In this document: positions 1-22,173 of the stretch, piece after piece
Layout: each line of letters starts with the position of its first letter
How positions within the stretch are numbered: position 1 is the stretch's first letter
IMG/VR virus record: IMGVR_UViG_3300010399_000045
Span: 1-54,684 of that record
Length of the DNA: 54,684 nucleotides
From: a virus
Direction: 5' to 3' (one strand)
Translations under genes and position numbers: made by a program
Notes under the pieces: generated by a model
The model's input: the letters and a program-made list of their open reading frames with translations, nothing else
Told to the model about the DNA's origin: nothing
The model's database searches: none

Positions 1-2
1 AA

Positions 3-218
3 CAGGTCCAGCGTGGCGTTGACGTGAAAGAAAAGACCCAGTTCGAGGTGTCGGCCGCCTGGATGAAGTCCTGCGGACTCGGCAGCGAGGCGAAGGTGTT
101 CCCAGTGCTGCGTACGCAGCACTACCCGAAGGCGGCGGACTGGTGTGCGGTGATGGTGATCGTGGAGCGCGACGGCCGCGAGTGGACGGTCGCGCAAGGA
201 CGCGGCAAGTTTATCTGA
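3..218 (+). CDS. Hypothetical protein, 5' end outside window
   Basis: The frame is open to the window edge (reads QVQRGVDVKEKTQ...), so the gene very probably begins upstream; a GTG at 24 is the first in-window start and would give 64 residues. The product is small and soluble (WCAVMVIVERDGREWTVAQGRG) and of no recognised family. The TGA at 216-218 lies directly before the first hammerhead ribozyme, as for most genes in this region. Confidence 0.6.
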   Translation, partial: QVQRGVDVKEKTQFEVSAAWMKSCGLGSEAKVFPVLRTQHYPKAADWCAVMVIVERDGREWTVAQGRGKFI

Positions 219-285
219 GTCGAAACCGGGCCAGGGTGCCCGGTCGCGCAGCACCCGGCCCGCTGCGCCTGATGATGACAGGCCG
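219..285 (+). ncRNA. Type II hammerhead ribozyme, copy 1
   Basis: Stem II 5' strand GUC 219-221; GAA(A) 222-225; stem III 225-231/238-244 (ACCGGGC with GCCCGGU); H17 is C245, so cleavage is predicted between 245 and 246; stem I 246-252/262-268 (GCGCAGC/GCUGCGC); core CUGAUGA 269-275; U276 extra; stem II 3' strand GAC 277-279, which pairs with GUC where most copies have GGC with GCC. Loop I bases 256-260 (CGGCC) pair with 281-285 (GGCCG) as a pseudoknot. Stem II is the open helix, which defines type II. The element begins one base after the stop of the preceding gene; the RBS of the next gene follows it. Cleavage is inferred, not observed. Confidence 0.9.
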
Positions 286-300
286 ACAGGAGCAGCTGAT

Positions 301-438
301 ATGCTGCGCTTTTTGATTGTCGAGCTGTGCAAGGCGATCCTGACCGTCGTGGTTGCTGCCACCCTGGTCATGTCGTTCGGCGCGTGGCTCGTCGGAGATG
401 AACAGGAGAGACCATATGCCGCGCATGACCGACGCTGA
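301..438 (+). CDS. Small membrane protein, 45 aa
   Basis: The ATG follows an AGGAG ribosome site after hammerhead 1. It encodes 45 residues with one strongly hydrophobic segment at about residues 12-32 (AILTVVVAATLVMSFGAWLV), so a single-pass inner-membrane peptide is likely. The next gene starts inside its last codons in another frame. No family is recognised. It is the first gene of the unit between ribozymes 1 and 2. Confidence 0.55.
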   Translation: MLRFLIVELCKAILTVVVAATLVMSFGAWLVGDEQERPYAAHDRR

Positions 439-626
439 CAAGCAGCGCGCGAAGTCCGAGATGGCGTGCATGTGCCTGACCGCGGTGCGCGACTACCTTG
501 GTTCAACCCGAGGTGCCCATCTCATGGGACCGGGGGCCAAGGCGGAACTCGGCGATCCACAAGACGATCATCGTCACCACCGCCGGTGGCACCTTCAAGG
601 TGGCGGTCAGCGAGTACCCCAACTGA
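416..626 (+). CDS. Hypothetical protein, probable +1 frameshift
   Basis: The ATG at 416 has a GGAGAG ribosome site and reads MPRMTDADKQRAKSEM...CLTAVRDYL. In that frame the protein then degrades into unlikely sequence and runs into hammerhead 2, stopping at 661. The +1 frame from about 498-501 reads well (LVQPEVPISWDRG...HKTIIVTTAGGTFKVAVSEYPN) and stops at 624-626, five bases before the ribozyme, where the other genes stop. The simplest reading is one gene of about 70 residues with a +1 shift near CTTGG at 497-501: a programmed shift, a mutation or a sequencing error. A separate GTG start at 513 is the alternative. No family recognised. Confidence 0.45.
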
Positions 627-630
627 AAGA

Positions 631-699
631 GCCGAAACGCCGCAGGGTGCGGCGTCGGTAGGGAGATGGGCCGACCCTGCCCTGATGATGGCAGGCCCA
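631..699 (+). ncRNA. Type II hammerhead ribozyme, copy 2
   Basis: Stem II GCC 631-633 with GGC 690-692; GAAA 634-637; stem III 637-643/649-655 (ACGCCGC/GCGGCGU); cleavage predicted after C656; stem I 657-663/675-681 (GGUAGGG/CCCUGCC, one G-U pair); core CUGAUGA 682-688; extra U689. Loop I UGGGCC 667-672 pairs with GGCCCA 694-699. Stem I differs completely from copy 1 yet stays paired. The unshifted frame of the preceding gene would be translated into this element as far as 661. Confidence 0.9.
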
Positions 700-715
700 A
701 ACCCGGAGAGAAAAA

Positions 716-916
716 ATGAAGGTCACGATCGATCCGATCGACGTCGACTCGATCACCGTCGAGATCAGTGGTGTGCCACTTCGCCTGTCGATCGACGTGA
801 ACGATTGCCTTCGCATCGAGTCCCAGAAGGACTACCTTGGGGCCGCGGTGCTGGCCAGCAACACGGTCCTGGTGTCGTACCTGTCGCCCCCTCCGAAGAA
901 AAAGGTGCGCAAATGA
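716..916 (+). CDS. Hypothetical protein, 66 aa
   Basis: The ATG follows CCCGGAGAGAA, a purine-rich ribosome site found behind most of the ribozymes. The protein is rich in beta-type sequence (KVTIDPIDVDSITVEISGVPLRLSIDV) and ends in a basic tail PPPKKKVRK. Its stop overlaps the ATG of the next gene (ATGA), so the two are probably translationally coupled. No family is recognised. Confidence 0.65.
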   Translation: MKVTIDPIDVDSITVEISGVPLRLSIDVNDCLRIESQKDYLGAAVLASNTVLVSYLSPPPKKKVRK

Positions 917-1362
917 TCACAAAACATCAGGTCAAGGCACTCGAGCGCGAGTTCCCGGAGGGCATCCCCGCATGGATGCTGACGGGCGGCCACAGCGCCG
1001 ACCAGATCCGCGAGCTCATGACGCTGCGGCGTGCCGGCCCCGCCAGATCGGCGGAAGGGCAGGCCCCGGAGCACAACTTCAGTGTCGAACCCGAGCAGTG
1101 GGACGACGCTGTCGTGATGAACGCCGCCTACTTTCAGATCGTCATCGGGCGAAACCCGGTGACGCGCGAGCGGATGCAGTGCAAGGATCTGCCCGAAGCT
1201 GTCAACCTCGCGCGGGTGCTGCTGCACACGGTCGCCGGCCAGAGGCCGATGATCTACGCTGTCACCGCGACCGGCCGCAGCACCATGCTGGTGCCGCAGC
1301 GCTGGGAGCACTACCTCAAACTTTGGGAGAAGCATCATGGGACTGCAAAAGTTTCGGGCTGA
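913..1362 (+). CDS. Hypothetical protein, 149 aa
   Basis: The start overlaps the previous stop by four bases. The 149-residue soluble protein opens with MITKHQVKALEREFPEGIPAWMLTGGHS and has a helical C-terminal half (EHYLKLWEKHHG). No catalytic motif or known domain can be seen. It lies in the three-gene unit between ribozymes 2 and 3. Confidence 0.7.
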   Translation: MITKHQVKALEREFPEGIPAWMLTGGHSADQIRELMTLRRAGPARSAEGQAPEHNFSVEPEQWDDAVVMNAAYFQIVIGRNPVTRERMQCKDLPEAVNLARVLLHTVAGQRPMIYAVTATGRSTMLVPQRWEHYLKLWEKHHGTAKVSG

Positions 1363-1615
1363 CAAGTTCGACAAGCAGTCGGACGGTGCCGAGATAGGCG
1401 TCTCCGAGTGGCTAGGCGGCCCGACGGTCTCGCTGGTCCGCAACTGCCGCCTCGCCAACCTGGAGGGTAACATGCGTCGCACGGTCTACGCGACAGGCGA
1501 TCCCGACACGTTCTTCTCCATCCCCGCGGTGACCGTGATCGCAGGGTGCCATGTCAACGGGCACCTGACGCTCGACGAGGATTGCCTGACGGTGTTTCGT
1601 CAGTGCTACTACTGA
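1337..1615 (+). CDS. Hypothetical protein, 92 aa
   Basis: The ATG lies 26 bases inside the end of the previous gene, preceded by GGGAGAA. The product is 92 residues, with four cysteines spread along it (NCRL, GCHV, EDCL, QCYY) and no obvious metal site. Its TGA at 1613-1615 precedes ribozyme 3 by two bases. No family is recognised. Confidence 0.65.
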   Translation: MGLQKFRADKFDKQSDGAEIGVSEWLGGPTVSLVRNCRLANLEGNMRRTVYATGDPDTFFSIPAVTVIAGCHVNGHLTLDEDCLTVFRQCYY

Positions 1616-1617
1616 TC

Positions 1618-1682
1618 GCCGAAACGCCGCGGGTAGCGGCGTCGTGCCGACCTGGTCCACGGCACCTGATGATGGCAGACCA
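1618..1682 (+). ncRNA. Type II hammerhead ribozyme, copy 3
   Basis: Stem II GCC 1618-1620 with GGC 1674-1676; GAAA 1621-1624; stem III 1624-1630/1636-1642; cleavage predicted after C1643; stem I GUGCCG 1644-1649 with CGGCAC 1660-1665; core CUGAUGA 1666-1672; extra U1673. Loop I UGGUC 1653-1657 pairs with GACCA 1678-1682. Stem and loop I are almost the same as in copies 6 and 9. Confidence 0.91.
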
Positions 1683-1701
1683 AAGATTCAGGAGCAGCCC
1701 A

Positions 1702-1908
1702 ATGGGCAAGCGATACAAGATGCTGAACGGAGAAAAGATGCCGGAGTTTCGCGCGCGCTGCCAGCGGCTCGAGGAGGAGCGGCGGGCGCCACCGCCTCCG
1801 CCGAAGCCCAAGCGGGTGCGCAAGTCCCGTGCCAAGCCGAAGCCCACGCCGATCGCCGACAAGGTCGACGGTTTCGACCGCGACAACCTCGGGTTGTCCC
1901 CCGACTGA
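1702..1908 (+). CDS. Basic, proline-rich small protein, 68 aa
   Basis: The ATG follows AGGAGCAGCCC. The 68-residue product has a helical start (EFRARCQRLEEERRA) followed by a run of prolines and Lys/Arg (PPPPPKPKRVRKSRAKPKP), so it is very basic and could bind nucleic acid or RNA; this is inference only. It is the only gene between ribozymes 3 and 4, so self-cleavage would leave it as a monocistronic message. Confidence 0.65.
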   Translation: MGKRYKMLNGEKMPEFRARCQRLEEERRAPPPPPKPKRVRKSRAKPKPTPIADKVDGFDRDNLGLSPD

Positions 1909-1977
1909 TTGCCGAAACCCGGACCAGATGTCCGGGTCCGCGCGGCGGTGGTTCCCCGCGCGCTGAAGAGGCAAACC
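1909..1977 (+). ncRNA. Type II hammerhead ribozyme, copy 4 (variant core)
   Basis: Stem II has five pairs, UUGCC 1909-1913 with GGCAA 1970-1974; GAAA 1914-1917; stem III 1917-1924/1930-1937; cleavage predicted after C1938; stem I CGCGCGG 1939-1945 with CCGCGCG 1956-1962; core CUGAAGA 1963-1969 (position 7 is A; the family tolerates any base there). Unlike all other copies there is no extra U between core and stem II, so this copy is closest to the classical consensus. The pseudoknot is weaker: GGUU 1950-1953 with AACC 1974-1977, partly competing with stem II. Confidence 0.87.
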
Positions 1978-1994
1978 CCCGGAGAGATCAAAAG

Positions 1995-2423
1995 ATGATC
2001 AAACATGATGACCACCCGTTCAAGCCGGGCGTGAAGGTCGCGGTGATCAGCGCCTACGGCACCAAGCGCACCTTCCGCGAGGACGAGGTCGCCAAGGTTC
2101 ACAAGACCGGGCGCTTCTCTCTGCAGCAGACGGGTGCGCAGTGGCGCGTGGAGCACGGCACGATCACATACGGCGGGCCGCGTGTCTGGTACGCCGAGCA
2201 ACCGGCCCAGTCTGGTCGCCGCTTCCGCGACCGGGTGCGAGTCCTCGACGAGTCATTCCTCGCCGAGATCGAGGTGGAGAAGGCTGAGGAGGCGCGGCGT
2301 ACGCGCGTGATCGAGGCGGTTCGGACAGCTGAGAAGTTTCTGGGTGGGCGATCGCAGGATCGCCTGACCGACTGGCAGCTCGAGGCACTCGAGACCTTCA
2401 ACAACCTGTGCAAGGAGCACTGA
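1995..2423 (+). CDS. Hypothetical protein, 142 aa
   Basis: The ATG follows CCCGGAGAGATCAAAAG. The first half looks beta-rich (VKVAVISAYGTKRTFREDEVAKVHKTGRFSL, WRVEHGTITYGG); the second half is a charged helix (FLAEIEVEKAEEARRTRVIEAV) ending in LTDWQLEALETFNNLCKEH. No known domain can be named. It is followed after five bases by the next gene in the same ribozyme-bounded unit. Confidence 0.7.
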   Translation: MIKHDDHPFKPGVKVAVISAYGTKRTFREDEVAKVHKTGRFSLQQTGAQWRVEHGTITYGGPRVWYAEQPAQSGRRFRDRVRVLDESFLAEIEVEKAEEARRTRVIEAVRTAEKFLGGRSQDRLTDWQLEALETFNNLCKEH

Positions 2424-2428
2424 TACAC

Positions 2429-2686
2429 ATGAGCGAGATTATCACCCGAATTGTGGAGCTTGGAAACGCCATGAAAGTTGCCCGGGAACGAAGCGAACTC
2501 GACCGCCTCTACGAGAAGGCGCGTGCCTACGGCGAGATGGTTGTCGACTATGAAGACGACGCCGACCCGGACACGATCTACGACGCGTGGATCCGGGCAG
2601 CGCGCAAGGCGCTCGAGCATGAGCCCGACCGTGCGCTCGCCGAGCAGGCTGCTTCCAAGGTCGCGCAGGCGTTCGCGCAGCCCTGA
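2429..2686 (+). CDS. Hypothetical helical protein, 85 aa
   Basis: The start at 2429 (MSEIITRIVELG) was chosen over the upstream in-frame start at 2408 because GGAG at 2414-2417 lies at a fair distance and the longer form overlaps the previous gene. The protein is all-helical and acidic in the middle (VVDYEDDADPDTIYDAWIRAARKALEHEPDRALAEQAASKVAQAF). No family is recognised. The stop is seven bases before ribozyme 5. Confidence 0.65.
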   Translation: MSEIITRIVELGNAMKVARERSELDRLYEKARAYGEMVVDYEDDADPDTIYDAWIRAARKALEHEPDRALAEQAASKVAQAFAQP

Positions 2687-2693
2687 AAGAATC

Positions 2694-2758
2694 GCCGAAA
2701 CCGGGCACCTAGCCCGGTCGTGCGGGGGTGAGCTCCCCGCGCCTGATGATGGCAGCTC
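2694..2758 (+). ncRNA. Type II hammerhead ribozyme, copy 5
   Basis: Stem II GCC 2694-2696 with GGC 2751-2753; GAAA 2697-2700; stem III ACCGGGC 2700-2706 with GCCCGGU 2712-2718; cleavage predicted after C2719; stem I GUGCGGGG 2720-2727 with CCCCGCGC 2735-2742; core CUGAUGA 2743-2749; extra U2750. Loop I GAGCU 2730-2734 pairs with AGCUC 2754-2758. Positions 2696-2758 are identical to 5376-5438 in copy 8. Confidence 0.91.
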
Positions 2759-2776
2759 TACCTACGGAGAGAACAG

Positions 2777-3766
2777 ATGACCGCAGCTGTAGAGACGATG
2801 GCCTGGACCGGTCAGACACCGTGGCACGGCGAGGGGTTCAAGGTCGACAACAACCTGACGCCCGAGCAGATGGTCGCCGCGGCGAAGATCAACTGGACCG
2901 TGTCCAAGCGCAAGGCCTTCTTCGAGCACGACGGTCAGATGGTACCGGCAAAGGATGAATACGCGCTGGTGCGCGACAGCGACGGCTTCAAGCTGTCGAT
3001 GGTCGGTGCCGGCTACAAACCCGTCCAGAACGCCGACGCCATGGACTTCTTCAAGCGCTTCGTCGACGCCGGTCACATGACGATGGAGACGGCCGGCGCC
3101 CTGTGGAATGGCCGCTACGTGTGGGGCCTCGCGCGGGTCGGCAAGGACTTCAAGCTGGGTAACAAGGACGAGGTGCGCGCGTATCTGCTCCTGTCGTCGC
3201 CGCACGTGCACGGCCGGTCGTTGAATATCCAGTTCACGACCGTGCGTGTCGTGTGCTGGAACACCCTCACGATGGCGCTCGGCGCCAAGCTGGACGGTGG
3301 CAAGGGCAAGGGGTTCCGTGTGCCACACTCGATCGCCTGGAACGATAAGGTGAAGGAGCAGGCGCAGGAGGCCTTCGGGCTCGCCGCGGAGCAGATGGTC
3401 CAATTCAAGGAGGCGGCGACAGTCCTCGTCAAGAAGAAGGCCGCGACGGCCGAGGTCGAGGAGTACTTCTGCGAGGTGATGCGGTACGATCCGAAGGAGA
3501 ACACCCGCAAGAAGAAGGCGGACGGGTCGGAGCGCGAGCCGAGGTCCCTGCCGAAGTTCCGCGCGGCGCTCGAGCACAGCCCCGGCCAGCAGCTGGCGCC
3601 GGCGCTCGGCACCTGGTGGGGCGCCCTGAACGCCGTCACCTTCGTGATCGATCACGAGATCGGTCGCGACCGCACGACGGCCCTGCGCAACGCCTGGATG
3701 GGTCACACCGCAGGCATCAAGCGGCGGGCCCTCGACCTGGCCCTGCAGAAGGCCGTGAAGTCCTGA
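2777..3766 (+). CDS. DUF932 phage/plasmid-like protein
   Basis: A 329-residue member of the DUF932 (phage/plasmid-like, TIGR03299) family. Family signs are the N-terminal TMAWTGQTPWHGEGFKV, the central TTVRVVCWNTLTMALG at about residues 155-170, and the C-terminal GTWWGALNAVTFVIDHEIGRDR. Proteins of this family are common on phages and plasmids; their biochemical role is unknown. It is the largest gene of the ribozyme-punctuated region and stands alone between copies 5 and 6, so processing would give it its own message. Confidence 0.9.
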   Translation: MTAAVETMAWTGQTPWHGEGFKVDNNLTPEQMVAAAKINWTVSKRKAFFEHDGQMVPAKDEYALVRDSDGFKLSMVGAGYKPVQNADAMDFFKRFVDAGHMTMETAGALWNGRYVWGLARVGKDFKLGNKDEVRAYLLLSSPHVHGRSLNIQFTTVRVVCWNTLTMALGAKLDGGKGKGFRVPHSIAWNDKVKEQAQEAFGLAAEQMVQFKEAATVLVKKKAATAEVEEYFCEVMRYDPKENTRKKKADGSEREPRSLPKFRAALEHSPGQQLAPALGTWWGALNAVTFVIDHEIGRDRTTALRNAWMGHTAGIKRRALDLALQKAVKS

Positions 3767-3769
3767 ATT

Positions 3770-3842
3770 GCCGAAACCTGCGGGGCCCGACAGCCCCCAG
3801 GTCGTGCCGATCTGGTCCACGGCACCTGATGATGGCAGACCA
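3770..3842 (+). ncRNA. Type II hammerhead ribozyme, copy 6
   Basis: Stem II GCC 3770-3772 with GGC 3834-3836; GAAA 3773-3776; long stem III 3776-3780/3798-3802 continuing across a bulged C3781 into GGGG 3782-3785 with CCCC 3794-3797; cleavage predicted after C3803; stem I GUGCCG 3804-3809 with CGGCAC 3820-3825; core CUGAUGA 3826-3832; extra U3833. Loop I UGGUC 3813-3817 pairs with GACCA 3838-3842. Confidence 0.9.
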
Positions 3843-3867
3843 AAAAAGTGGAGAGGAAAAGCAGGTC

Positions 3868-4179
3868 ATGGCTGAGATCCACATCACCCTGAACGAGGAT
3901 TCGTACTACAAGTGCCTGACTGACGTCGGTCTTCTAGATCTGATGGCCGTTGCGCACGTCGACCGCGTTGGTGACAACTATCACGTGCGTTTGACCCACA
4001 AGGATCTGGAACAGCTCCTGAAAGGTGAAAAGATCAGCCCAGACGAGTACGCGCACGAATTAGCCTGCCAGCTTGTTCGTCAAAGCCGGCCCAAGAAGAC
4101 GAAAAGTTACCTACTTAGTGCGGCCGTTGTCGTGTGGGCCACGGCGAGCGTACTCCTATTGTTCTTGGCGTATCAATAA
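3868..4179 (+). CDS. Small tail-anchored membrane protein, 103 aa
   Basis: The ATG follows GGAGAGGAAAAGCAGGTC after ribozyme 6. The first 80 residues are soluble (MAEIHITLNEDSYYKCLTDVGLL...), and the last 22 form one transmembrane segment (LLSAAVVVWATASVLLLFLAYQ) preceded by a basic stretch (RPKKTKS), so the soluble domain probably faces the cytoplasm. It is slightly less GC-rich than its neighbours. No family is recognised; it is the only gene between ribozymes 6 and 7. Confidence 0.7.
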   Translation: MAEIHITLNEDSYYKCLTDVGLLDLMAVAHVDRVGDNYHVRLTHKDLEQLLKGEKISPDEYAHELACQLVRQSRPKKTKSYLLSAAVVVWATASVLLLFLAYQ

Positions 4180-4182
4180 ATG

Positions 4183-4255
4183 GCCGAAACCCAGGTCTTC
4201 CAGTGTACCTGGGTCGTCGCGGGCTGGGTACCCGCGGCCTGATGATGGCAACCCA
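4183..4255 (+). ncRNA. Type II hammerhead ribozyme, copy 7
   Basis: Stem II GCC 4183-4185 with GGC 4247-4249; GAAA 4186-4189; stem III ACCCAGGU 4189-4196 with ACCUGGGU 4207-4214; cleavage predicted after C4215; stem I 4216-4223/4231-4238 (eight pairs, unlike any other copy); core CUGAUGA 4239-4245; extra U4246. Loop I UGGGU 4225-4229 pairs with ACCCA 4251-4255. Stem I and the pseudoknot both differ from copy 6 but stay complementary. Confidence 0.91.
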
Positions 4256-4271
4256 AACCCGGAGAGAAACG

Positions 4272-5177
4272 ATGTTAAAGAGCTACGAGCAGCGCGCGCA
4301 GGAGTACCTGGGTCGCGACCTCGCGGGCCTCACCGCGTACCTGCAGGGCTGCAGGGTCGACATGCACGAGCCCGACGAGCAGGGTGTCAAGGCAAGTGTA
4401 GTCGGCAGTCACCTGGACAACTCGTTCGGCAATACCGGCACCAACGACGAGCTGGTTGTGCTCCTCGACCGCGACGGCAAGCCACAGGAACGTTTTAACC
4501 TGGCTACACTGATCGCGCTGGCACGGCTCGCCGACCTCGGGTCCTTGATCCCGCGCGAGTATCAGCTGACGCCCCTGCAGATCACGATGCTCCTGCACTA
4601 CCACGCGATCGTTACACCCTACGGCCGCGGCGAGCCGGAGCACGCCAACTCGCCGGCCGTGCGGCAGCAGCGGGAAGCGATGGTGACGATGGGCCTGCTG
4701 TACGCGACCGACGAGTTCCCGTCAGGCTACAGGACGACCGAGGCCGGGCGCCGGCACGTCGAGCGCCTGACGCAGATGAGCCCGGGGCGCGCGTCTGACA
4801 GCACCCCGCTCGACGAGCTGTTCGATGAGCGTGAGCGGCAGCAGAACAACATGATCTTCGCTGCCGCGAATATCAGGGCGCACGCGGAGGCGTTCCGTGA
4901 GGTGACCGACCGCATCGTGAACATCCTCATGACCGGCGGCGGTGGGCACGACGAGGTCATCGACGAGACGGAGGTCATGAACACCGACACCTACGTCGAC
5001 CATGTGCTCATGACCGAGGCGGCTGGCAAGATCGACGAGAAACGCCGGCGTGTCTCCAAGCTCGAGCAGTTGCTGTGTCAGATCGTCGACGCCTACTTTG
5101 GGAAACAGCCTATTCGCGATGCCATCGCTGAGGCACGTGAACTCGTCAAGGACGTGCCACGGGAGGTCAGGTCGTGA
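4272..5177 (+). CDS. Hypothetical protein with winged-helix-like middle, 301 aa
   Basis: The ATG follows CCCGGAGAGAAACG. The protein is 301 residues. The middle (about residues 96-170: LTPLQITMLLHYHAIVTPYG...MVTMGLLYATDEFPSGYRTTEAGRRHVERL) resembles the arrangement of a winged-helix domain in which a short hairpin leads into a final helix, but this is a weak structural guess. The C-terminal half is a long charged helix region. No named family. Its TGA overlaps the GTG start of the next gene. Confidence 0.7.
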   Translation: MLKSYEQRAQEYLGRDLAGLTAYLQGCRVDMHEPDEQGVKASVVGSHLDNSFGNTGTNDELVVLLDRDGKPQERFNLATLIALARLADLGSLIPREYQLTPLQITMLLHYHAIVTPYGRGEPEHANSPAVRQQREAMVTMGLLYATDEFPSGYRTTEAGRRHVERLTQMSPGRASDSTPLDELFDERERQQNNMIFAAANIRAHAEAFREVTDRIVNILMTGGGGHDEVIDETEVMNTDTYVDHVLMTEAAGKIDEKRRRVSKLEQLLCQIVDAYFGKQPIRDAIAEARELVKDVPREVRS

Positions 5178-5392
5178 AGGACGACCTGGTCTGCATCAGG
5201 CCCAGCGCTGGAGGAAACCTCACCTGGGCCAGCAGGGCTGCGTGCATACGCAGCCTGCGCGAGTTCAGCCCGGCCCCGCGGGCTGCGCACCGTGTCGTCC
5301 GGTTCTGGTCGACCCGGTATGGTAAATGGCGGTATTGTCGAGTCCTAGACCCGACTCGGTGCCGCAAACAGAAGTCGAAACCGGGCACCTAG
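5174..5392 (+). CDS. Hypothetical basic protein whose stop lies in a ribozyme, 72 aa
   Basis: GTG start in a GTGA overlap with the previous stop. The 72-residue product is basic and rich in Arg, Trp and Cys (WSTRYGKWRYCRVLDPTRCRKQ). Its last nine codons encode the stem II strand, the GAAA and half of stem III of ribozyme 8, and its TAG (5390-5392) lies at the end of loop III. A ribosome finishing this gene would therefore cover and unfold the ribozyme. No family is recognised. Confidence 0.6.
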   Translation: MKDDLVCIRPSAGGNLTWASRAACIRSLREFSPAPRAAHRVVRFWSTRYGKWRYCRVLDPTRCRKQKSKPGT

Positions 5393-5440
5393 CCCGGTCG
5401 TGCGGGGGTGAGCTCCCCGCGCCTGATGATGGCAGCTCAC
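5374..5440 (+). ncRNA. Type II hammerhead ribozyme, copy 8 (overlaps a stop codon)
   Basis: Stem II GUC 5374-5376 with GGC 5431-5433 (one U-G pair); GAAA 5377-5380; stem III 5380-5386/5392-5398; cleavage predicted after C5399; stem I GUGCGGGG 5400-5407 with CCCCGCGC 5415-5422; core CUGAUGA 5423-5429; extra U5430. The pseudoknot is the longest of the set: GUGAGCU 5408-5414 with AGCUCAC 5434-5440. The upstream gene ends inside loop III, seven bases before the scissile bond. Confidence 0.91.
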
Positions 5441-5464
5441 AGAACATGGAACCCGGAGAGAACC

Positions 5465-6256
5465 ATGCAGGATAACAACAAGATCATCGACAAGATCCGC
5501 AAGGTGCTGGCCCTCACGTCCTCGCCGAACGAGGGTGAGGCGGCGAGCGCGGCAGCACGCGTGCAGGAGATGCTCGCCAAGTACAACCTTCAGCTCGGCG
5601 ACGTCATCGAGAAGAAGGCGGACGAGGCGATCCAGATCTACAAGGGCATGCGCACGCCTTCCCGGCCCTGGTGCCGGCAGATCGCGGTAGCGACCGCCAG
5701 TCTGTACTTCTGCCGCTACTACTACACGTTCGTCAAGGAGGGTGCCGCGCGCAAGTGCGGCTACATCCGCTACGACGAGCACTATTTCGTCGGCCGTCCG
5801 CACAACGCGGCGGTCGCCATGATGATGTTTGAGTACCTGACCAAGACTGTCGAGCGGTTGGCGGTCGCGGGCAGCAAGTCGGTGCCGGCCACCGAGCGGA
5901 CCTCCTACATGACCTCGTTCCGCACAGCCTGCGCCCTGCGCCTGAACGCCCGCATCTACGCCCGGCTCACCGAGACCATCAAGTCGGCGACCCGCAGCAC
6001 CGAGGTCAATGGTAGCGGCGGTGCCCCCAGCAGCAACCTCCCCGCGCTCGCCAGCCTGTACCAGCAGGCGAAGCAGGAACTGCAGGAGTTCATGGATGAG
6101 AACTTCAGCAAGAACAGTATCAAAGAGAAGGTGACCAAGGTCGTCTACAACCACAGCAAAGGTACCCAGGACGGCGACAAGGCCGGTTCCTCGATCGGCC
6201 TCGACCAACAGGTCGGTGCGGGTGGCAAGCCCTCCGCACTGATCGGGAGGACCTGA
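5465..6256 (+). CDS. DUF2786 domain protein
   Basis: The ATG follows CCCGGAGAGAACC. A 263-residue protein whose first 45 residues (IIDKIRKVLALTSSPNEGEA..AAARVQEMLAKYNL) are a clear DUF2786 domain. The middle (PWCRQIAVATASLYFCRYYYTF.., EHYFVGRPHNAAVAMMMFEYL) matches the companion domain usually found after DUF2786. Such proteins are frequent in phages and mobile elements; the function is unknown. It is followed after two bases by a small gene in the same unit. Confidence 0.85.
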   Translation: MQDNNKIIDKIRKVLALTSSPNEGEAASAAARVQEMLAKYNLQLGDVIEKKADEAIQIYKGMRTPSRPWCRQIAVATASLYFCRYYYTFVKEGAARKCGYIRYDEHYFVGRPHNAAVAMMMFEYLTKTVERLAVAGSKSVPATERTSYMTSFRTACALRLNARIYARLTETIKSATRSTEVNGSGGAPSSNLPALASLYQQAKQELQEFMDENFSKNSIKEKVTKVVYNHSKGTQDGDKAGSSIGLDQQVGAGGKPSALIGRT

Positions 6257-6258
6257 TC

Positions 6259-6462
6259 ATGGCTCGAATGATCGTCAGCGAGCGCGAGCGCCTGCTTCAC
6301 GGCGCCGTCCACGACCTCAGCAGCGCATTGCAGCACGTGCTGCGCGCGATCGACCTGTCGCAGGCGAACGGCGACGCGAGTGTCACCGTTCGCCAACCCC
6401 TGATCGAGGCACTCGCGTGCATCGACACAAGCCGCATCGAACTGGAAGGATTCATCGGATAA
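6259..6462 (+). CDS. Hypothetical helical protein, 67 aa
   Basis: The ATG is two bases after the stop of the DUF2786 gene. The product is 67 residues, all-helical (RERLLHGAVHDLSSALQHVLRAIDLSQ). No family is recognised. Its TAA is one base before ribozyme 9. Confidence 0.65.
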   Translation: MARMIVSERERLLHGAVHDLSSALQHVLRAIDLSQANGDASVTVRQPLIEALACIDTSRIELEGFIG

Positions 6463-6463
6463 A

Positions 6464-6531
6464 GCCGAAACGGCGCGCGTCGTCGCGCCGTCGTGCCGAT
6501 CTGGTCCACGGCACCTGATGATGGCAAACCA
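6464..6531 (+). ncRNA. Type II hammerhead ribozyme, copy 9
   Basis: Stem II GCC 6464-6466 with GGC 6523-6525; GAAA 6467-6470; stem III ACGGCGCG 6470-6477 with CGCGCCGU 6484-6491; cleavage predicted after C6492; stem I GUGCCG 6493-6498 with CGGCAC 6509-6514; core CUGAUGA 6515-6521; extra U6522. Loop I UGGU 6502-6505 pairs with ACCA 6528-6531. Confidence 0.9.
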
Positions 6532-6549
6532 AACCCGGAGAGAAACCAC

Positions 6550-7011
6550 ATGACCAAAGGTCGCAAGGTCAACCCGAGATATGCAAGCAAGAAGCGGACA
6601 CCCCGCCCGACGAGGGAAGAGTTGAGCCGGCGTCTGCAGGATCTCAGTACAGAACTGCGCATCGTGGAATCTGTGCGCGCCAGTGCCGAGGAGCGTGCAG
6701 GCCGATACTGGGAGGAGATCACGAAGCTGAAGCAGTACCTGGAGGAGGCCCAGGCAGGATCACGACATGCCTATGAGCAGCGCGACGATACGATACGCGA
6801 GCGCAACGAGGCCGAGGCTCGCATGTGGCGCCAGGCAGGAGCGCTGCAGCTGATCTGGGCCGAGTTCGCGCCGTACAACATGCTCGGCGCTGACCCCAAT
6901 CGCCTGAAGAACTCGCTGCGCGTGATCCACGGCATCGCCGAGCAGGCACTCGGCAGACAGAGCCTGGGTTGCGGCCTTTTCGAGGCCGCGCAACTGCGGA
7001 AGACCAACTAG
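6550..7011 (+). CDS. Coiled-coil protein, 153 aa
   Basis: The ATG follows CCCGGAGAGAAACCAC. A basic N-terminus (TKGRKVNPRYASKKRTPRPT) leads into a long charged coiled coil (about residues 22-100, EELSRRLQDLSTELRIVESVRAS through RNEAEARMWRQ) and a compact C-terminal part. No enzyme motif. The G of its TAG stop (7009-7011) is also the first base of ribozyme 10. Confidence 0.7.
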   Translation: MTKGRKVNPRYASKKRTPRPTREELSRRLQDLSTELRIVESVRASAEERAGRYWEEITKLKQYLEEAQAGSRHAYEQRDDTIRERNEAEARMWRQAGALQLIWAEFAPYNMLGADPNRLKNSLRVIHGIAEQALGRQSLGCGLFEAAQLRKTN

Positions 7012-7076
7012 CCGAAACCGGGCGCCCTTCGCCCGGTCGCGCGGACCTGACCCGCCGCGCCTGATGATGGCAGGTC
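7011..7076 (+). ncRNA. Type II hammerhead ribozyme, copy 10
   Basis: Stem II GCC 7011-7013 with GGC 7069-7071; GAAA 7014-7017; stem III ACCGGGC 7017-7023 with GCCCGGU 7031-7037; cleavage predicted after C7038; stem I GCGCGG 7039-7044 with CCGCGC 7055-7060; core CUGAUGA 7061-7067; extra U7068. Loop I ACCU 7045-7048 pairs with AGGU 7072-7075. The first base belongs to the stop codon of the upstream gene. Confidence 0.9.
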
Positions 7077-7103
7077 GAAACAAAATTCCCCGGAGAGAAA
7101 GAT

Positions 7104-7289
7104 ATGATCACCGAAAACAAGCTGAAACGCGTACCGCGCATCTACCGCTGGATTGAGGGCTACGCCACTCTCATGGTCGGTGGTGGTGGTGTCATGATGC
7201 TGCTCCAGCAGCCCCTTTGGGCGATCGCCTTCTTCACTGGCGCGATCGCTCTAAAGCTGGACCTGCGCGACACAAGGGAGGGTTACTGA
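7104..7289 (+). CDS. Small membrane protein, 61 aa
   Basis: The ATG follows CCCCGGAGAGAAAGAT. The 61-residue protein has two short hydrophobic segments, about residues 20-35 (YATLMVGGGGVMMLL) and 38-51 (LWAIAFFTGAIALK), with a basic N-terminus, so a membrane hairpin is likely. Its stop overlaps the next ATG by one base (TGATG). No family is recognised. Confidence 0.7.
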   Translation: MITENKLKRVPRIYRWIEGYATLMVGGGGVMMLLQQPLWAIAFFTGAIALKLDLRDTREGY

Positions 7290-7519
7290 TGGTACGGGAA
7301 AAGGAGGTCGTAAATCTCGAGTGCCTCGACCGCGACGACCTGTCGGATTACATCCGCAAGCACCAGGACGATCCGGCCTACAGCTACCAGGTGTCGATCG
7401 CGCAAACCATCCGTGAGGCCCAGGCGGCGCAGTTGACAGGGCAGATCTCCCGCGCCCTCACCCTCGAGAAGCATGCGGACGCGCTCTACAAGCTCCTGCC
7501 GCAGGAGGAGCGCTGGTGA
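7289..7519 (+). CDS. Hypothetical protein, 76 aa
   Basis: The ATG overlaps the previous stop. The 76-residue soluble protein is largely helical (DRDDLSDYIRKHQDDPAYSYQVSIAQTIREAQAAQL) and ends KLLPQEERW. No family is recognised. Its stop precedes ribozyme 11 by three bases. Confidence 0.7.
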   Translation: MVREKEVVNLECLDRDDLSDYIRKHQDDPAYSYQVSIAQTIREAQAAQLTGQISRALTLEKHADALYKLLPQEERW

Positions 7520-7522
7520 GAA

Positions 7523-7590
7523 GTCGAAACGGCGCGATGACGCGCCGTCGTGCAGCACCCGGCCCCGCTGCGCCTGATGATGACAGGGCC
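7523..7590 (+). ncRNA. Type II hammerhead ribozyme, copy 11
   Basis: Stem II GUC 7523-7525 with GAC 7582-7584, the same compensated pair as copy 1; GAAA 7526-7529; stem III ACGGCGCG 7529-7536 with CGCGCCGU 7541-7548; cleavage predicted after C7549; stem I GUGCAGC 7550-7556 with GCUGCGC 7567-7573; core CUGAUGA 7574-7580; extra U7581. Loop I GGCCC 7561-7565 pairs with GGGCC 7586-7590. It is the last copy found in the window. Confidence 0.91.
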
Positions 7591-7604
7591 CCCGGAGAGA
7601 GAAG

Positions 7605-7964
7605 ATGAAGAAGGCATCAGTTGACCCACGCGAAGCGCGCCTGCCGGTTTGGGCACGCGACGAGCTCGACACGCTACGCCGCAAGGTCACGGATCTGCAG
7701 AAGGCGCTCACAACTATCACCGAGTGCAACAAACCGGCCCAGTTCTGGGTCGACCTCGGGCCATCGAGCAACACCCCCGGTCGCTTCTACCTGCAACAGC
7801 CGCGGATGCACTTCGGCGTGGACCCGATGGACGACGGTTTCGGTACCCAGCACCTGCAGCTGATCCATCGCGAGGAAGGTGGTCAGCACTACCTCGAGAT
7901 CAACGGCAAGCAGGCCCTGTACGTGCGTCCGTATGCTAGCAACGTCCTGCGGATCATGGTGTGA
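7605..7964 (+). CDS. Hypothetical protein, 119 aa
   Basis: The ATG follows CCCGGAGAGAGAAG. An N-terminal helical part (residues 20-45, ELDTLRRKVTDLQKALTTI) precedes a beta-rich C-terminal part (FWVDLGPSSNTPGRFYLQQP, HYLEINGKQALYVRP). No family is recognised. It starts the 3.6 kb gene series that carries no further ribozyme; its stop overlaps the next GTG. Confidence 0.7.
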   Translation: MKKASVDPREARLPVWARDELDTLRRKVTDLQKALTTITECNKPAQFWVDLGPSSNTPGRFYLQQPRMHFGVDPMDDGFGTQHLQLIHREEGGQHYLEINGKQALYVRPYASNVLRIMV

Positions 7965-8320
7965 GCACCATGACCAAGTTCAAGCAGGGCAAGGAAGCTG
8001 CGGACCGGGTGCGCCAGCACCACGCGGACGAAGAGCAGTACGAACTGCCCGAACCCGACGTGACCCCCGCTACCCACCCCGACCATCACACGGTCGGCAA
8101 GGAGTTCATGGGTCACGACTACCGGCGACACGGGTGGCCCGCGGTGCGCTGGTTCTGCGAGTCACATGACCGATGCGGCTACTGGATGTACGCGACCGAC
8201 GGGTCCGGTCATTGGACCAATGTGTCGGAGCGCGCAATCGGCCGCAGCTTCCACGAGATCGAGCGCTTGCCGTCCGGTCGCCTGATCTGTGCGGGCTGGC
8301 GGGTTCCAACTTATACTTGA
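7961..8320 (+). CDS. Hypothetical protein, 119 aa
   Basis: GTG start in a GTGA overlap; the ATG at 7970 is an alternative. The N-terminal 45 residues are charged and look disordered. The C-terminal 75 residues contain a beta-rich stretch with Trp, Cys and His (WFCESHDRCGYWMYATDGSGHWTNVSERAIGRSFHEIERLPSGRLICAGW). No family is recognised. Confidence 0.65.
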   Translation: MSTMTKFKQGKEAADRVRQHHADEEQYELPEPDVTPATHPDHHTVGKEFMGHDYRRHGWPAVRWFCESHDRCGYWMYATDGSGHWTNVSERAIGRSFHEIERLPSGRLICAGWRVPTYT

Positions 8321-8331
8321 AAGGAGGAGAC

Positions 8332-9171
8332 ATGCGTGCGCAGCGAAGGACCGCCGAACCTCGATGGGGTGTCGTCGGAGCTGCGATTACGTTGGCTGCC
8401 GCTGCCGGTTACTTCAGTGTAACCGGCATGGCAGCACTCTATGCGGGGTCGGCGATCGGGGTCAGCGTAATCTTTGCGGCGATCGAGATCGGTAAATTGG
8501 CAACCGCCGCTTCCCTGCATCGCTACTGGCCCGGTCTGTCGTGGGTCGTTCGGATCGGACTGATGGTGGCCCTGCTGGCCGCCATGCTCCTGACCTCGGC
8601 TGGTGTGTACGGCTACCTTCTGCGGGCCTACCTGTCGCGCGCACCAGCACTCACCTCAGCGCAGCAGGTGGTAGCCTCACAAGAACGCCTGATCGTCGAC
8701 CTGGAAGCGCGCCTGCGTGCGGCGCCTGCCAAGATCAACCTGCCTTCTCGCATCTCGTCCCGCGCGATGACGATCGCTGCACAGGCGCAGGCAGCAGAAC
8801 AAAAGAGACAGGCGACAGATAGAATGCGCCTGACGACCGAGTACCAAGCTGCTCTACAACGGCTGGCGGAATTGCGCACAACAGCGGCCGAGGTGGAGGT
8901 GGAACTTGGACCCGCAAGAACACTCGCCACGTGGCTCAACCTGGGGCAGTCCGGTGCTGTAGAGGTGCTGACCTTGATCTCGGTGTTGTGCCTCGATCCG
9001 CTAGCCGTCCTGCTGATGATGGCCGGCAGTGGGCGCGCACAAAACCTTCCTATCAGGCGGGTCAAGAAGAAACGAAAAAGTCTCAAGAAGAAGGTGCGTA
9101 AAAGCTTACCGCGAGTAACACCAACCTACACAACACCAGTAGCGCGTTTAACAAGCAGCAAGAAGGGGTAA
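8332..9171 (+). CDS. Multi-pass membrane protein with coiled coil and basic tail
   Basis: The ATG has a strong AAAGGAGGAG site. A 279-residue protein with hydrophobic segments at about residues 13-35, 38-53 and 68-92, a long amphipathic coiled region (about 105-200, rich in Ala, Gln and Arg), another hydrophobic segment at about 214-233, and a very basic tail (RRVKKKRKSLKKKVRKS). This resembles membrane proteins of mobile elements with a long non-membrane loop, but no family can be named. The basic end could bind nucleic acid or anionic lipid. Confidence 0.7.
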   Translation: MRAQRRTAEPRWGVVGAAITLAAAAGYFSVTGMAALYAGSAIGVSVIFAAIEIGKLATAASLHRYWPGLSWVVRIGLMVALLAAMLLTSAGVYGYLLRAYLSRAPALTSAQQVVASQERLIVDLEARLRAAPAKINLPSRISSRAMTIAAQAQAAEQKRQATDRMRLTTEYQAALQRLAELRTTAAEVEVELGPARTLATWLNLGQSGAVEVLTLISVLCLDPLAVLLMMAGSGRAQNLPIRRVKKKRKSLKKKVRKSLPRVTPTYTTPVARLTSSKKG

Positions 9172-9176
9172 AACCT

Positions 9177-9356
9177 ATGGGTATCGAAGAGATCCGCGCC
9201 GCACTTGCGCGGCGCGTCATGGAGCGGGGTCGACAGGCGGCTGTTGAGTCCCGAGTGCTGGACGTGGTCCGGTGCCTCCAAGAACTGCTCGGCCTGCTGC
9301 CCGAGGACGAGGTCGAGCAGTTCAGACAGGAGATCCAGACATGCGGCGAGTTATGA
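9177..9356 (+). CDS. Small helical protein, 59 aa
   Basis: The ATG at 9177 follows AAGGGGTAAAACCT. It encodes 59 residues of charged helix (GIEEIRAALARRVMERGRQAAVESRVLDVVRCLQELLGLL). No family is recognised. Its last 16 bases overlap the next gene. Confidence 0.6.
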   Translation: MGIEEIRAALARRVMERGRQAAVESRVLDVVRCLQELLGLLPEDEVEQFRQEIQTCGEL

Positions 9357-9472
9357 TCTTTACAGCATCGGTGGTACCGGCGCTGTGCTTCACCGCGTTC
9401 ATGGCGGTGGCGCACTACTGCCAGGTCAAGCAAGCGCTCGGTCTGCCGACCACTTTCTGCACCAGGCGGTGA
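9341..9472 (+). CDS. Small membrane peptide, 43 aa
   Basis: The ATG overlaps the end of the previous gene and has AGGAG eight bases upstream. The 43 residues include one hydrophobic segment (VMIFTASVVPALCFTAFMAVAHY) after MRR, compatible with an uncleaved membrane anchor. It ends TTFCTRR. No family is recognised. Confidence 0.55.
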   Translation: MRRVMIFTASVVPALCFTAFMAVAHYCQVKQALGLPTTFCTRR

Positions 9473-9503
9473 TGCCTGGTATGATCGGAGAGGAGTTTAG
9501 CAT

Positions 9504-9944
9504 ATGAAACGATACACGGTACACGACTACGTGGTGCGAGCACTTGCTGGATCTGTGTCACGCGGATACGTGACGACCGATCCGCTGGTGGTCGCTGAGA
9601 TCGAGAAGTTCTACAAGTACGCGCGCGAGATGTACGGCTACTCGCGTAGCGGTGCCGACAGGTGGCTCTCGTGTGCGAGCAGTGAGCGGTTAGACGCTGT
9701 GGTCGACCAGATCAGGGATGCCGATAAGCTCCTTCGCTTCAAGGCGGCCTGGGATCGGCTGAGCTCGGAGCAGCGGCAGCAGGTCGTCAATTGGGTCGAG
9801 GTGTTGTCAGCGACAGGTCGTCAGGTCGATCAGGGACCCGCCAGCCCGCAGACGCCTCAGGTCACCTGTGACCGCTGCGGCATCCTGAAGCGGCCCGCGA
9901 ATGAGGCGGATCACAACTGCGGAAGCTGCGGGGAACTGATATGA
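9504..9944 (+). CDS. Hypothetical protein with C-terminal zinc ribbon
   Basis: The ATG follows GGAGAGGAGTTTAGCAT. The 146-residue protein is helical for its first 110 residues and ends in a probable zinc site (CDRCGILKRPANEADHNCGSCGELI: two CxxC pairs). The N-terminal part is not recognised. Its stop overlaps the next ATG, in the run that leads to the primase. Confidence 0.7.
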   Translation: MKRYTVHDYVVRALAGSVSRGYVTTDPLVVAEIEKFYKYAREMYGYSRSGADRWLSCASSERLDAVVDQIRDADKLLRFKAAWDRLSSEQRQQVVNWVEVLSATGRQVDQGPASPQTPQVTCDRCGILKRPANEADHNCGSCGELI

Positions 9945-10171
9945 CAGATCAGGAACCCAAACGTGTCGACGTGCAGGTTATGGAGCTGCTGCCCGGTCTG
10001 ATGAACCGCGTCCTGCGGCTCATCGAATGGGGTGGGTACAGTAAACCGAAGACGCTGTCCTTGCCGAACTACACCGTCAGGCATCTGAGCCTGAAGACCG
10101 GAAGCATCTTCTGGCAACAGAGGCGTTCATTCGGTCACAAGGAACCGGCCAACTGGTACAAGGTGCTCTGA
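9941..10171 (+). CDS. Hypothetical protein, 76 aa
   Basis: The start overlaps the previous stop, and its TGA overlaps the primase ATG (TGATG). A soluble protein of 76 residues, LLPGLMNRVLRLIEWGGYSKPKTLSL..., with a basic C-terminal half. Position and coupling suggest co-expression with the primase; no family is recognised. Confidence 0.65.
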   Translation: MTDQEPKRVDVQVMELLPGLMNRVLRLIEWGGYSKPKTLSLPNYTVRHLSLKTGSIFWQQRRSFGHKEPANWYKVL

Positions 10172-11172
10172 TGGACTGGGAGCACACCCTGTCGCAGCAC
10201 GGGGTGCCCTACGCGACCCGCGGGCCTAACGTGGCCCGCGGTGCGATAGCTGTAAAATGTCCGTTCTGCGGGCCGGCAGATCCGTCCGAGCACCTGGTCA
10301 TCGACCTCGGTGGCAAGGGTTGGCTCTGCCGGCGCTCGCGTGAGCACAGGGGCCGCTCCGCGACACGCCTTCTGCAGGCGCTCCTGGGCTGCACGCGCGA
10401 GCAGGCGCAGCGCCTATCAGGCGAGCGCAGCATCCCCGACGATATGCTGTCGATCGTCCGCGCGCGCCTGGGCCTCGACCTGCCTGCGGCTGTGCAGATG
10501 CGGAAACCACCGAACATGCCTGCCGGGTTCAAGCGATTCACCGGACTGCCCTCGTCGCGCCCGTTTGTCCACTATCTAGCGGGGCGGGGTTTTGACGACC
10601 GGCAGATCCGCGACATGATTGACAGATACGACCTGCGGTACTGTGTGCGGGGTTCGTTCGGCGGCCGGGTGATCTTCCCAATCAAGAGAGACGGCACACT
10701 GGTGTCGTGGACCGGCAGATCTATCAGCGCCGGGGCGCGCCTGCGGTACAAGACGCTGCCCGAGGACCCGGACGCTGCACGCGACCTCGACTGCGATCCG
10801 GCGGTCGCGCCCATATCGCACTACCTGCTGTGGGAAGACGAGCTGCGCGCGACCGAGGCCGACACCGTATCGATATCTGAAGGTCCTTTTGACGCACTAC
10901 GTGTAGCGCTCCTGGGCCGCGAGCTCGGCGTTTGTGGCACCTGTGTGTTCACCGCCGAACCGTCCGACGAGCAGGTCGGACTACTTCACGAGATCTTGCC
11001 TCGATTCAAACGGCGACTGCTCCTGCTGGATCAGAGTACTGTTAACGCGACGATGCGGATCAGCGCCGCACTCGCCGGGTTGTCAGTTGAACCTGTGTAC
11101 CTGCCAGCAGGGTTGAAGGACCCAGGTGAGATTCGCAGTACAAAAGACCTGGCCCAAGTCCTTTCTATATAA
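10171..11172 (+). CDS. DnaG-type primase (zinc finger and Toprim)
   Basis: A 333-residue protein organised like a DnaG-type primase. The N-terminus has a zinc-binding start (KCPFCGPADPSEHLVID...GWLCRRSREHRG). The middle follows the usual pattern after the zinc domain (FVHYLAGRGFDDRQIRDMI, GRVIFPIKRDGTLVSWTGRSI). A Toprim domain follows at about residues 225-305: SISEGPFDALRVAL with the catalytic Glu, then LLLLDQSTVNATMR. It lays RNA primers for the phage polymerase. The second Toprim motif reads LDQST rather than the usual DxD, so the metal site is altered and activity is not certain. No helicase domain is fused. Confidence 0.85.
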   Translation: MDWEHTLSQHGVPYATRGPNVARGAIAVKCPFCGPADPSEHLVIDLGGKGWLCRRSREHRGRSATRLLQALLGCTREQAQRLSGERSIPDDMLSIVRARLGLDLPAAVQMRKPPNMPAGFKRFTGLPSSRPFVHYLAGRGFDDRQIRDMIDRYDLRYCVRGSFGGRVIFPIKRDGTLVSWTGRSISAGARLRYKTLPEDPDAARDLDCDPAVAPISHYLLWEDELRATEADTVSISEGPFDALRVALLGRELGVCGTCVFTAEPSDEQVGLLHEILPRFKRRLLLLDQSTVNATMRISAALAGLSVEPVYLPAGLKDPGEIRSTKDLAQVLSI

Positions 11173-11338
11173 CCGACGATTTTTCTTGAGGTAAAGTCCG
11201 CTTTACCCTACCTTGACTCTATGCCGAGTTGCGTGGCATCTCTCCGCGGTGCTGGGGACCCCCGTCGCAATAGTCCCCGTTTACTCTTTTACTGAACAGG
11301 GTTCGGAGAGCTTGGAGTCAAAAGGGAGGCAGGGCCCG
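11173..11338 (+). promoter_or_regulatory. Gap with inverted repeat upstream of the sigma-like gene
   Basis: A 166 bp gap between primase and the next gene, one of the two largest on the plus strand. It holds a seven-base inverted repeat, GGTAAAG 11190-11196 with CTTTACC 11201-11207, after a T-run (11180-11184). A second dyad is GGGGAC near 11253-11258 with GTCCCC near 11273-11278, followed by T-rich sequence. TTGAGG at 11186 and TTGACT at 11213 are possible -35 boxes but no good -10 is seen. It could hold a terminator for the primase operon, an operator, or a promoter. The gap ends in a strong GGGAGG ribosome site. Confidence 0.4.
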
Positions 11339-11893
11339 ATGATAGGCAAAGCACCGATGGCACCCGGTATGGATCAGGGTGCTCTGGGATGGATGATCAG
11401 GACAGCGAGAAAGAACCACTGGCGGGTTTCCGCCTACATCGATCTGGACGACCTGATGCAGGACGGGTACTTTTACTGGTTACGGATCGGCAGCAGGTAC
11501 CCAGATGTCAAGGACCAGCCGCTCCGCATGCGCTTGTTTCAAACCGCATTCAACAATCACCTTACAAATCTGGCGACTCGACGCACCCGCCAACCGAACT
11601 TCCTCCCCCTGATGGTGCAGCAGCTCGAAGAAGAAGCCGGCCGAACGCCTGAGCACGAGCTGATCGAACTCCCCCCAACGACCATCGCCTACTCGGATCA
11701 TGGTATCTGTCGCAACCTAGTACGCCGCGCGATTGAAGCGCTCGGCAGCGACGCTGGTGCCGCCGCATGGCGTGCTCCGTACGACCGGCGAGCCGACGGC
11801 ACACGCGAGACTACCAACGAGCGGCTGTGCCGCATCGTGGGCGTGGACCCCACCCAGATCAACATGCTTGCAGTACTCCGCGCGGCGCTCTGA
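11339..11893 (+). CDS. Sigma-factor-like protein
   Basis: The ATG at 11339 has GGGAGG nine bases upstream; a TTG at 11213 would extend the frame by 42 residues through the regulatory gap and is less likely. The 184-residue protein has at about residues 20-75 a pattern like sigma-70 region 2 (ARKNHWRVSAYIDLDDLMQDGYFYWLRI, then MRLFQTAFNNHLTNLATRRTRQ), where sigma factors bind RNA polymerase and the -10 element. Its C-terminal third is helical (TTNERLCRIVGVDPTQINMLAVL), which could stand in for region 4. A role in directing host polymerase to phage promoters is an inference. Confidence 0.5.
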   Translation: MIGKAPMAPGMDQGALGWMIRTARKNHWRVSAYIDLDDLMQDGYFYWLRIGSRYPDVKDQPLRMRLFQTAFNNHLTNLATRRTRQPNFLPLMVQQLEEEAGRTPEHELIELPPTTIAYSDHGICRNLVRRAIEALGSDAGAAAWRAPYDRRADGTRETTNERLCRIVGVDPTQINMLAVLRAAL

Positions 11894-11946
11894 TACGCCG
11901 CGGTATGTACCTGGTACAAGGTCTTCTACCTGGAGAGACAAACAAG

Positions 11947-15911: not shown

Positions 15912-15920
15912 TCAAAACCG

Positions 15921-22150: not shown

Positions 22151-22173
22151 CAGGCCGCGAGGGAAAGGGACCG

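Follow-up and report, generated by a model that had tools for sequence, protein, structure and literature searches.

Eleven type II hammerhead ribozyme motifs between the genes of a putatively early region in an uncultured phage

Eleven motifs of the type II hammerhead ribozyme lie between the genes of one region of an uncultured virus (IMG/VR record IMGVR_UViG_3300010399_000045, positions 1 to 54,684; this whole stretch of 54,684 nt is hereafter called the window). They are probably self-cleaving ribozymes that act as punctuation in a single co-directional phage transcript, dividing it co-transcriptionally into separate mRNAs. The motifs were located with a script requiring, in order, GAAA, stem III, UH, stem I, CUGANGA, and stem II. 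All of them are on the + strand, from 219 to 7590. The rest of the 54.7-kb window and its - strand contained no further matches, and the same scan found no elements in 60 order-2 Markov shuffles. A preliminary description of this DNA had reported eleven elements and eleven cut sites, and the script returned identical positions. The elements are as follows, with predicted cut sites, pseudoknot strands, and scores of the Rfam covariance model RF02276.

Copy 1: 219..285, + strand; GAAA at 222, cut after 245, pseudoknot CGGCC/GGCCG, 33.2 bits
Copy 2: 631..699, + strand; GAAA at 634, cut after 656, pseudoknot UGGGCC/GGCCCA, 47.2 bits
Copy 3: 1618..1682, + strand; GAAA at 1621, cut after 1643, pseudoknot UGGUC/GACCA, 47.3 bits
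Copy 4: 1911..1977, + strand; GAAA at 1914, cut after 1938, pseudoknot GGUU/AACC, 41.9 bits
Copy 5: 2694..2758, + strand; GAAA at 2697, cut after 2719, pseudoknot GAGCU/AGCUC, 48.8 bits
Copy 6: 3770..3842, + strand; GAAA at 3773, cut after 3803, pseudoknot UGGUC/GACCA, 35.0 bits
Copy 7: 4183..4255, + strand; GAAA at 4186, cut after 4215, pseudoknot UGGGU/ACCCA, 45.1 bits
Copy 8: 5374..5440, + strand; GAAA at 5377, cut after 5399, pseudoknot GUGAGCU/AGCUCAC, 48.2 bits
Copy 9: 6464..6531, + strand; GAAA at 6467, cut after 6492, pseudoknot UGGU/ACCA, 41.9 bits
Copy 10: 7011..7076, + strand; GAAA at 7014, cut after 7038, pseudoknot GACCU/AGGUC, 34.4 bits
Copy 11: 7523..7590, + strand; GAAA at 7526, cut after 7549, pseudoknot GGCCC/GGGCC, 27.7 bits

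Comparison with RF02276 placed seven copies above the gathering threshold of 37 bits (41.9–48.8 bits) and four below it (35.0, 34.4, 33.2, and 27.7 bits), the scores of copies 1 and 11 (33.2 and 27.7 bits) being obtained by searching their own stretches in isolation. All eleven were aligned end to end (model positions 1–66), so the Rfam check suggested earlier gave full-length alignments on both sides of the threshold. When the 11 copies were used to build a covariance model, it recovered just these 11 in the window, which shows only the absence of further copies, because the model was trained on the same set. Likewise, the core (GAAA, UH at the cut, and CUGANGA) is present in 11/11 copies by construction of the motif scan, but it was also intact in 64 of the 66 matches of the window-trained model, where it was not required; one of the two exceptions is a truncated match.

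The elements share with RF02276 the order of core and stems, the GUC cut site, CUGANGA and GAAA, a short stem II, and a pseudoknot between loop I and the 3' tail; stems I and III are closed by loops, stem II is open, and the helices covary. They differ from RF02276 in that 4 of 11 are under the curated threshold, stem II has 3 bp, and an extra U occurs in 10 copies. Copy 4 has the core CUGAAGA and lacks the extra U before stem II, copy 6 has a long stem III, and copy 8 is near-identical to copy 5. The preliminary description assigned the stem II pairing GUC-GAC to copies 1 and 11; this pairing is indeed confined to them, but copy 8 has the wobble version GUC/GGC, so GUC itself occurs in copies 1, 8, and 11.

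The same description stated that the helices remain paired while their sequences differ, and covariation was confirmed on two alignments. In a MAFFT alignment of the 11 copies, which was not fitted to the structure, standard pairs occupied 93.8% of the stem and pseudoknot cells, compared with 74.6% after shuffling, and two-sided changes were found at 11 of 19 pairs. The covariation score was 0.528 versus 0.173 for shuffled data; none of 500 shuffles reached it, and it fell to 0.14 or less once the partner column was slid by 1–3 positions. In a structure-fitted alignment of 66 array members, drawn from the window as well as other contigs, the score reached 0.951 versus 0.208. Together with the absence of elements in the Markov shuffles, covariation rules out a chance origin. 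Architecture, covariation, and membership in RF02276 thus bear out the identification as type II hammerheads. The pseudoknot was not mentioned in the preliminary description. It involves loop I and the 3' tail immediately downstream of stem II, and 4–7 Watson-Crick pairs are possible in 11/11 copies. Mean pairing of loops with their own tails exceeded that with tails swapped between copies in 300/300 trials, and the result also holds for 150 other viral copies. In characterized type II hammerheads, truncations of the pseudoknot slow cleavage about 20 to >100-fold, and it is needed for fast cleavage (PMC3088659).

The positions of the elements relative to genes are equally regular. Genes inside one unit overlap or stand no more than 5 nt apart, and every remaining junction between 301 and 7964 is occupied by an element. 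The units are the following.

After copy 1: 301-438 and 416-~626, + strand
After copy 2: 716-916, 913-1362, and 1337-1615, + strand
After copy 3: 1702-1908, + strand
After copy 4: 1995-2423 and 2429-2686, + strand
After copy 5: 2777-3766 (DUF932), + strand
After copy 6: 3868-4179, + strand
After copy 7: 4272-5177 and 5174-5392, + strand
After copy 8: 5465-6256 (DUF2786/DUF7168) and 6259-6462, + strand
After copy 9: 6550-7011, + strand
After copy 10: 7104-7289 and 7289-7519, + strand
After copy 11: 7605-7964 (DUF7239), + strand

Ten of the 11 copies begin between 7 nt past and 1 nt inside the upstream stop codon; in copy 10, stem II overlaps the final base of the upstream UAG. The exception is copy 8, where the upstream open reading frame (ORF) 5174-5392 enters the stem III loop and its stop codon lies there, yet still 5' of the cut. 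The distance from the cut to the start codon is 55–65 nt in all 11 cases, typically about 57 nt, and the leaders contain the Shine-Dalgarno sequences GGAGA, AGGAG, or GAGGA. Copy 5 is directly upstream of the DUF932 gene. A similar arrangement was found at other viral hammerheads: a stop codon is located within -12 to +3 nt of stem II in 107 of 136 (79%) compared with 11.5% of random positions, and a Shine-Dalgarno sequence with a start codon lies 40–70 nt past the cut in 92 of 136 (68%) compared with 4.7%. The second gene after copy 1 (416-661) shows an apparent frame change: the frame of its start codon runs into copy 2, and an alternative frame gives a plausible protein tail ending at 626. 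This could be a sequence error or a real break.

Consensus scans for promoters and terminators over positions 1-12000 of the window were at background, and the repeats were accordingly rejected as terminators or promoters. The scan result fits one long transcript without proving it, since other promoter types were not covered. On such a transcript, each ribozyme would fold during transcription, the pseudoknot between loop I and the 3' tail locking the 3-bp stem II, and would make a single cut immediately 3' of the stem III hairpin. The upstream mRNA would end in this hairpin with a 2',3'-cyclic phosphate, shortly past its stop codon. The downstream mRNA would begin with a 5'-OH, stem I, and the pseudoknot, which can persist as a structured 5' end because both its strands fall on the downstream fragment, and a standard leader of 55–65 nt would run to the Shine-Dalgarno sequence and start codon. 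Hammerhead cleavage products carry a 2',3'-cyclic phosphate and a 5'-OH; RNase E-type decay is slowed by a hairpin at the 5' terminus or by a 5' end other than a monophosphate, and exonucleases are hindered by 3' ends that are blocked or structured. The likely benefit is the decoupling of gene units, enabling their independent translation and decay, while both mRNA ends would be protected, the 5' end from 5'-monophosphate-dependent degradation and the 3' end from exonucleases. That the elements are catalytic, that the array is transcribed as one RNA, and that mRNA stability or translation is affected are predictions made here from sequence.

The close proximity of ribozymes to translation signals also suits another explanation, in which cleavage is regulated or incidental and each element is a translation or decay switch and not a constitutive processing site. 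Because the pseudoknot tail adjoins the Shine-Dalgarno sequence, ribozyme and ribosome would compete; only a few nucleotides separate the two in several copies, e.g., in copy 2 (GGCCCA-AACCC-GGAGAG) and copy 11, and copy 8 is partly in a coding frame, so that translating ribosomes would unfold it. However, the identical geometry across copies and unrelated phages fits a standard leader, and an Rfam search revealed no aptamers or other regulatory families, making regulated cleavage rather unlikely.

Type II hammerheads, their pseudoknot, and prophage clusters around single genes were described in 2011 by Perreault et al., who proposed a role in processing transcripts into mRNAs of gene length (PMC3088659). 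Three tandem clusters were cleaved in vitro, and the Agrobacterium tumefaciens triple was also cleaved in Escherichia coli (PMC3088659). Like these clusters, such as the A. tumefaciens triple around ardA, the elements of the window have one orientation and flank single genes or short blocks of a phage. The largest arrangement named in the text of that paper is a triple (PMC3088659), whereas the window has 11 copies, which fill all non-coupled junctions, and belongs to a phage that encodes its own replication module. Another known example, HHphage of haloviruses HF1/HF2, is also located close upstream of an early gene (helicase), and a mapped transcript 5' end there is no more than 3 nt from the cut site; unlike the window, it is a single copy with a variant core in an archaeal virus (PMC3088659). 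Later work found hammerheads and twisters enriched near one another and near Mu-like phage genes, the biological reason being unknown (PMC10085705). Perreault et al. also considered RNA circularization, and processing for circularization or trans-ligation instead of linear mRNAs is conceivable for the window, since each internal unit would, as expected from the hammerhead reaction, bear both a 5'-OH and a 2',3'-cyclic phosphate (PMC3088659). The same authors, however, searched for spliced or circular RNAs without detecting any (PMC3088659), and we regard this route as highly improbable.

Similar arrays were found in other viruses. From the pattern-scan matches listed (at least 120 rows), 119 IMG/VR records were taken and searched whole with RF02276. 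Most of these records among the matches listed had 0–3 matches, and five had at least 5: G055 (5), G058 (6), G063 (11), G099 (7), and G106 (5). G063 and G099 are relatives of the window phage, with DUF932 proteins about 52% and primases 43%–46% identical and the array in the same place; the motif scan counted 12 copies in G063 and 8 in G099. A profile search with DUF932 revealed a third relative, L253 (G125), with ten copies. In the DUF932 tree, four array bearers (the window, L124, L254 [also L125], and L253) formed a clade together with the array-less L251 (support 100/97), and a ribozyme is immediately upstream of DUF932 in 4/4 array bearers. The DUF2786 protein of G055 is 42% identical to that of the window. 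The ninth hammerhead of G055 (L127, 3551-3648, - strand) has the core CCGATGA in place of CTGATGA (U4C), a substitution also known in a viroid variant that is active. Searches of viral contigs with the DUF2786 protein or with a window-specific ribozyme sequence found no relatives, and a near-identity search of phage records with the window gave no match. Phage PaP3 had no RF02276 match although Perreault et al. reported a core-variant hammerhead there; the RF02276 search therefore overlooks variants, and the copy counts are minimum values.

A distant DNA search that used a single array element pointed to cultivated Streptomyces phages of the Arquatrovirinae. One-strand arrays were present in all eight phages examined: R4 (9 copies), Marav (13), Alvy (11), Diane (9), Thestral (11), Omar (9), Salutena (12), and phiScoe1 (10), which is not an unbiased sample because they were chosen for matching the search. 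As in the window, 9–13 type II hammerheads are on one strand in an arm of small genes; unlike in the window, stem II is often GGC/GCC and the spacing to stop and start codons is looser. The genomes read carry a serine integrase, and these phages are likened to the window phage by their arrays, not by protein relation. In R4 (JX182370, L331), gp67.1 and gp60.1, annotated as hypothetical proteins, sit atop type II hammerheads (6855-6947 and 9227-9310) and may not be genes. OCR-like antirestriction genes are present inside Arquatrovirinae arrays (L331 5240-5770 and L332 6790-7203), which recalls ardA between the A. tumefaciens hammerheads. A BLAST match in Gordonia phage Bakery was rejected, since at the sensitivity of Rfam it does not qualify as a type II hammerhead. 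The preliminary description called the array unusual; this holds against the bulk of viral contigs, mostly with 0–3 matches, but the array is not unique, given 9–13 copies in eight Arquatrovirinae and 8–12 in three relatives. No description of long arrays or of Arquatrovirinae hammerheads was found in the open-access literature, subscription papers being outside the search.

Comparison of the ribozyme halves provided a view of how copies may evolve. The copies with GAAA at 634 and 1621 are alike in stem III (0.94) and not in stem I (0.56), while 1621 and 3773 are alike in stem I (0.95) and little in stem III (0.48), as are 3773 and 6467 (1.00 and 0.52, respectively). In the window, the similarities of the stem III and stem I halves are unlinked (r=0.11, permutation P=0.19). 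They are also unlinked in L253, L254, L332, and L334, and linked in L126, L127, and L331. In the sister contigs L253 and L254, inspection showed very different hairpins upstream of DUF932 in a DNA stretch 84% identical overall, and stems of the first array copies stay complementary through many substitutions. These patterns suggest, with moderate confidence because short hairpins can converge, that halves have been exchanged between copies.

Unlinked halves could also be expected if the elements were mainly DNA-level recombination seams for gene-cassette exchange, with self-cleavage secondary or vestigial, and the small genes separated by ribozymes seldom have detectable counterparts in relatives, though the array persists. 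However, a seam could do without an intact catalytic core, covarying helices, or a pseudoknot; the halves are linked in three of the arrays listed above, and convergence of short GC-rich hairpins would produce unlinked halves as well. A predominantly recombinational role is therefore improbable. More speculatively, exchange and punctuation may be combined: in some phage lineages, ribozyme punctuation might generate most mRNAs of one early-type region, and the halves, which are independent hairpins, might serve as interchangeable end modules, letting gene cassettes insert or swap at any ribozyme and give working chimeric ribozymes.

Several observations weigh against punctuation of a single transcript by self-cleavage. 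Promoters outside the sigma-70 scan could render the units separate transcripts. Energy-folding z-scores of the full elements are just -0.7 to -2.5, so the three-stem fold is not uniformly favored, and several free leaders adopt a different fold if the pseudoknot is absent; energy-only folding is uninformative here, since the pseudoknot cannot be modeled. Four of 18 consensus hammerheads failed to cleave in vitro (PMC3088659). Finally, L251 (G124), a close DUF932 relative, has no array there, its sole RF02276 signal being 22 bits at contig positions 8566-8645, and the array is therefore not essential in that lineage. L251 is a possible case of array loss; in relatives without an array, Rfam detected no ribozymes of other classes in place of hammerheads.

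The array adjoins a replication module encoding primase, DNA polymerase, processivity factor, clamp loader, RecA, and SSB-like and SbcC-like proteins, and genes for tail, baseplate, and endolysin occupy the opposite strand at the right end of the window. This neighborhood agrees with the earlier placement of the elements among early-type genes and points to an early role of the array genes themselves, which mostly have no known relatives except DUF932, DUF2786/DUF7168, and DUF7239, the last just past the final ribozyme. Since the contig begins 218 bases ahead of copy 1, the array may exceed 11 copies; no end repeats were found in the whole 54,684 bases. The window also encodes a GTP cyclohydrolase and a queuine tRNA-ribosyltransferase family protein (14848-17030), and its relative L124 encodes a QueE-like radical SAM protein (2032-2748), which suggests a 7-deazaguanine pathway, perhaps for DNA modification. 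A tRNA-Glu of 93 nt predicted by ARAGORN at 22161-22253 (- strand) is antisense to replication module genes and probably spurious.

Compared with known hammerhead clusters, the new features are the copy number, the rigid cassette of stop codon, ribozyme, Shine-Dalgarno sequence, and start codon at every non-coupled junction, the retention of the array in a lineage diverged to ~52% identity, the apparent reassortment of half-modules, and the link to cultivated phages. The reason for phage hammerheads has been an open question since 2011, and stray elements would hardly account for arrays of 9–13 copies at most junctions of a region. In array-bearing genomes, some annotated small ORFs overlie ribozymes, and RNA-seq data from such phages would be misread under a simple polycistronic transcript model. 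The arrays in cultivated Streptomyces phages such as R4 make the putative ribozyme processing of mRNA accessible in a tractable system.

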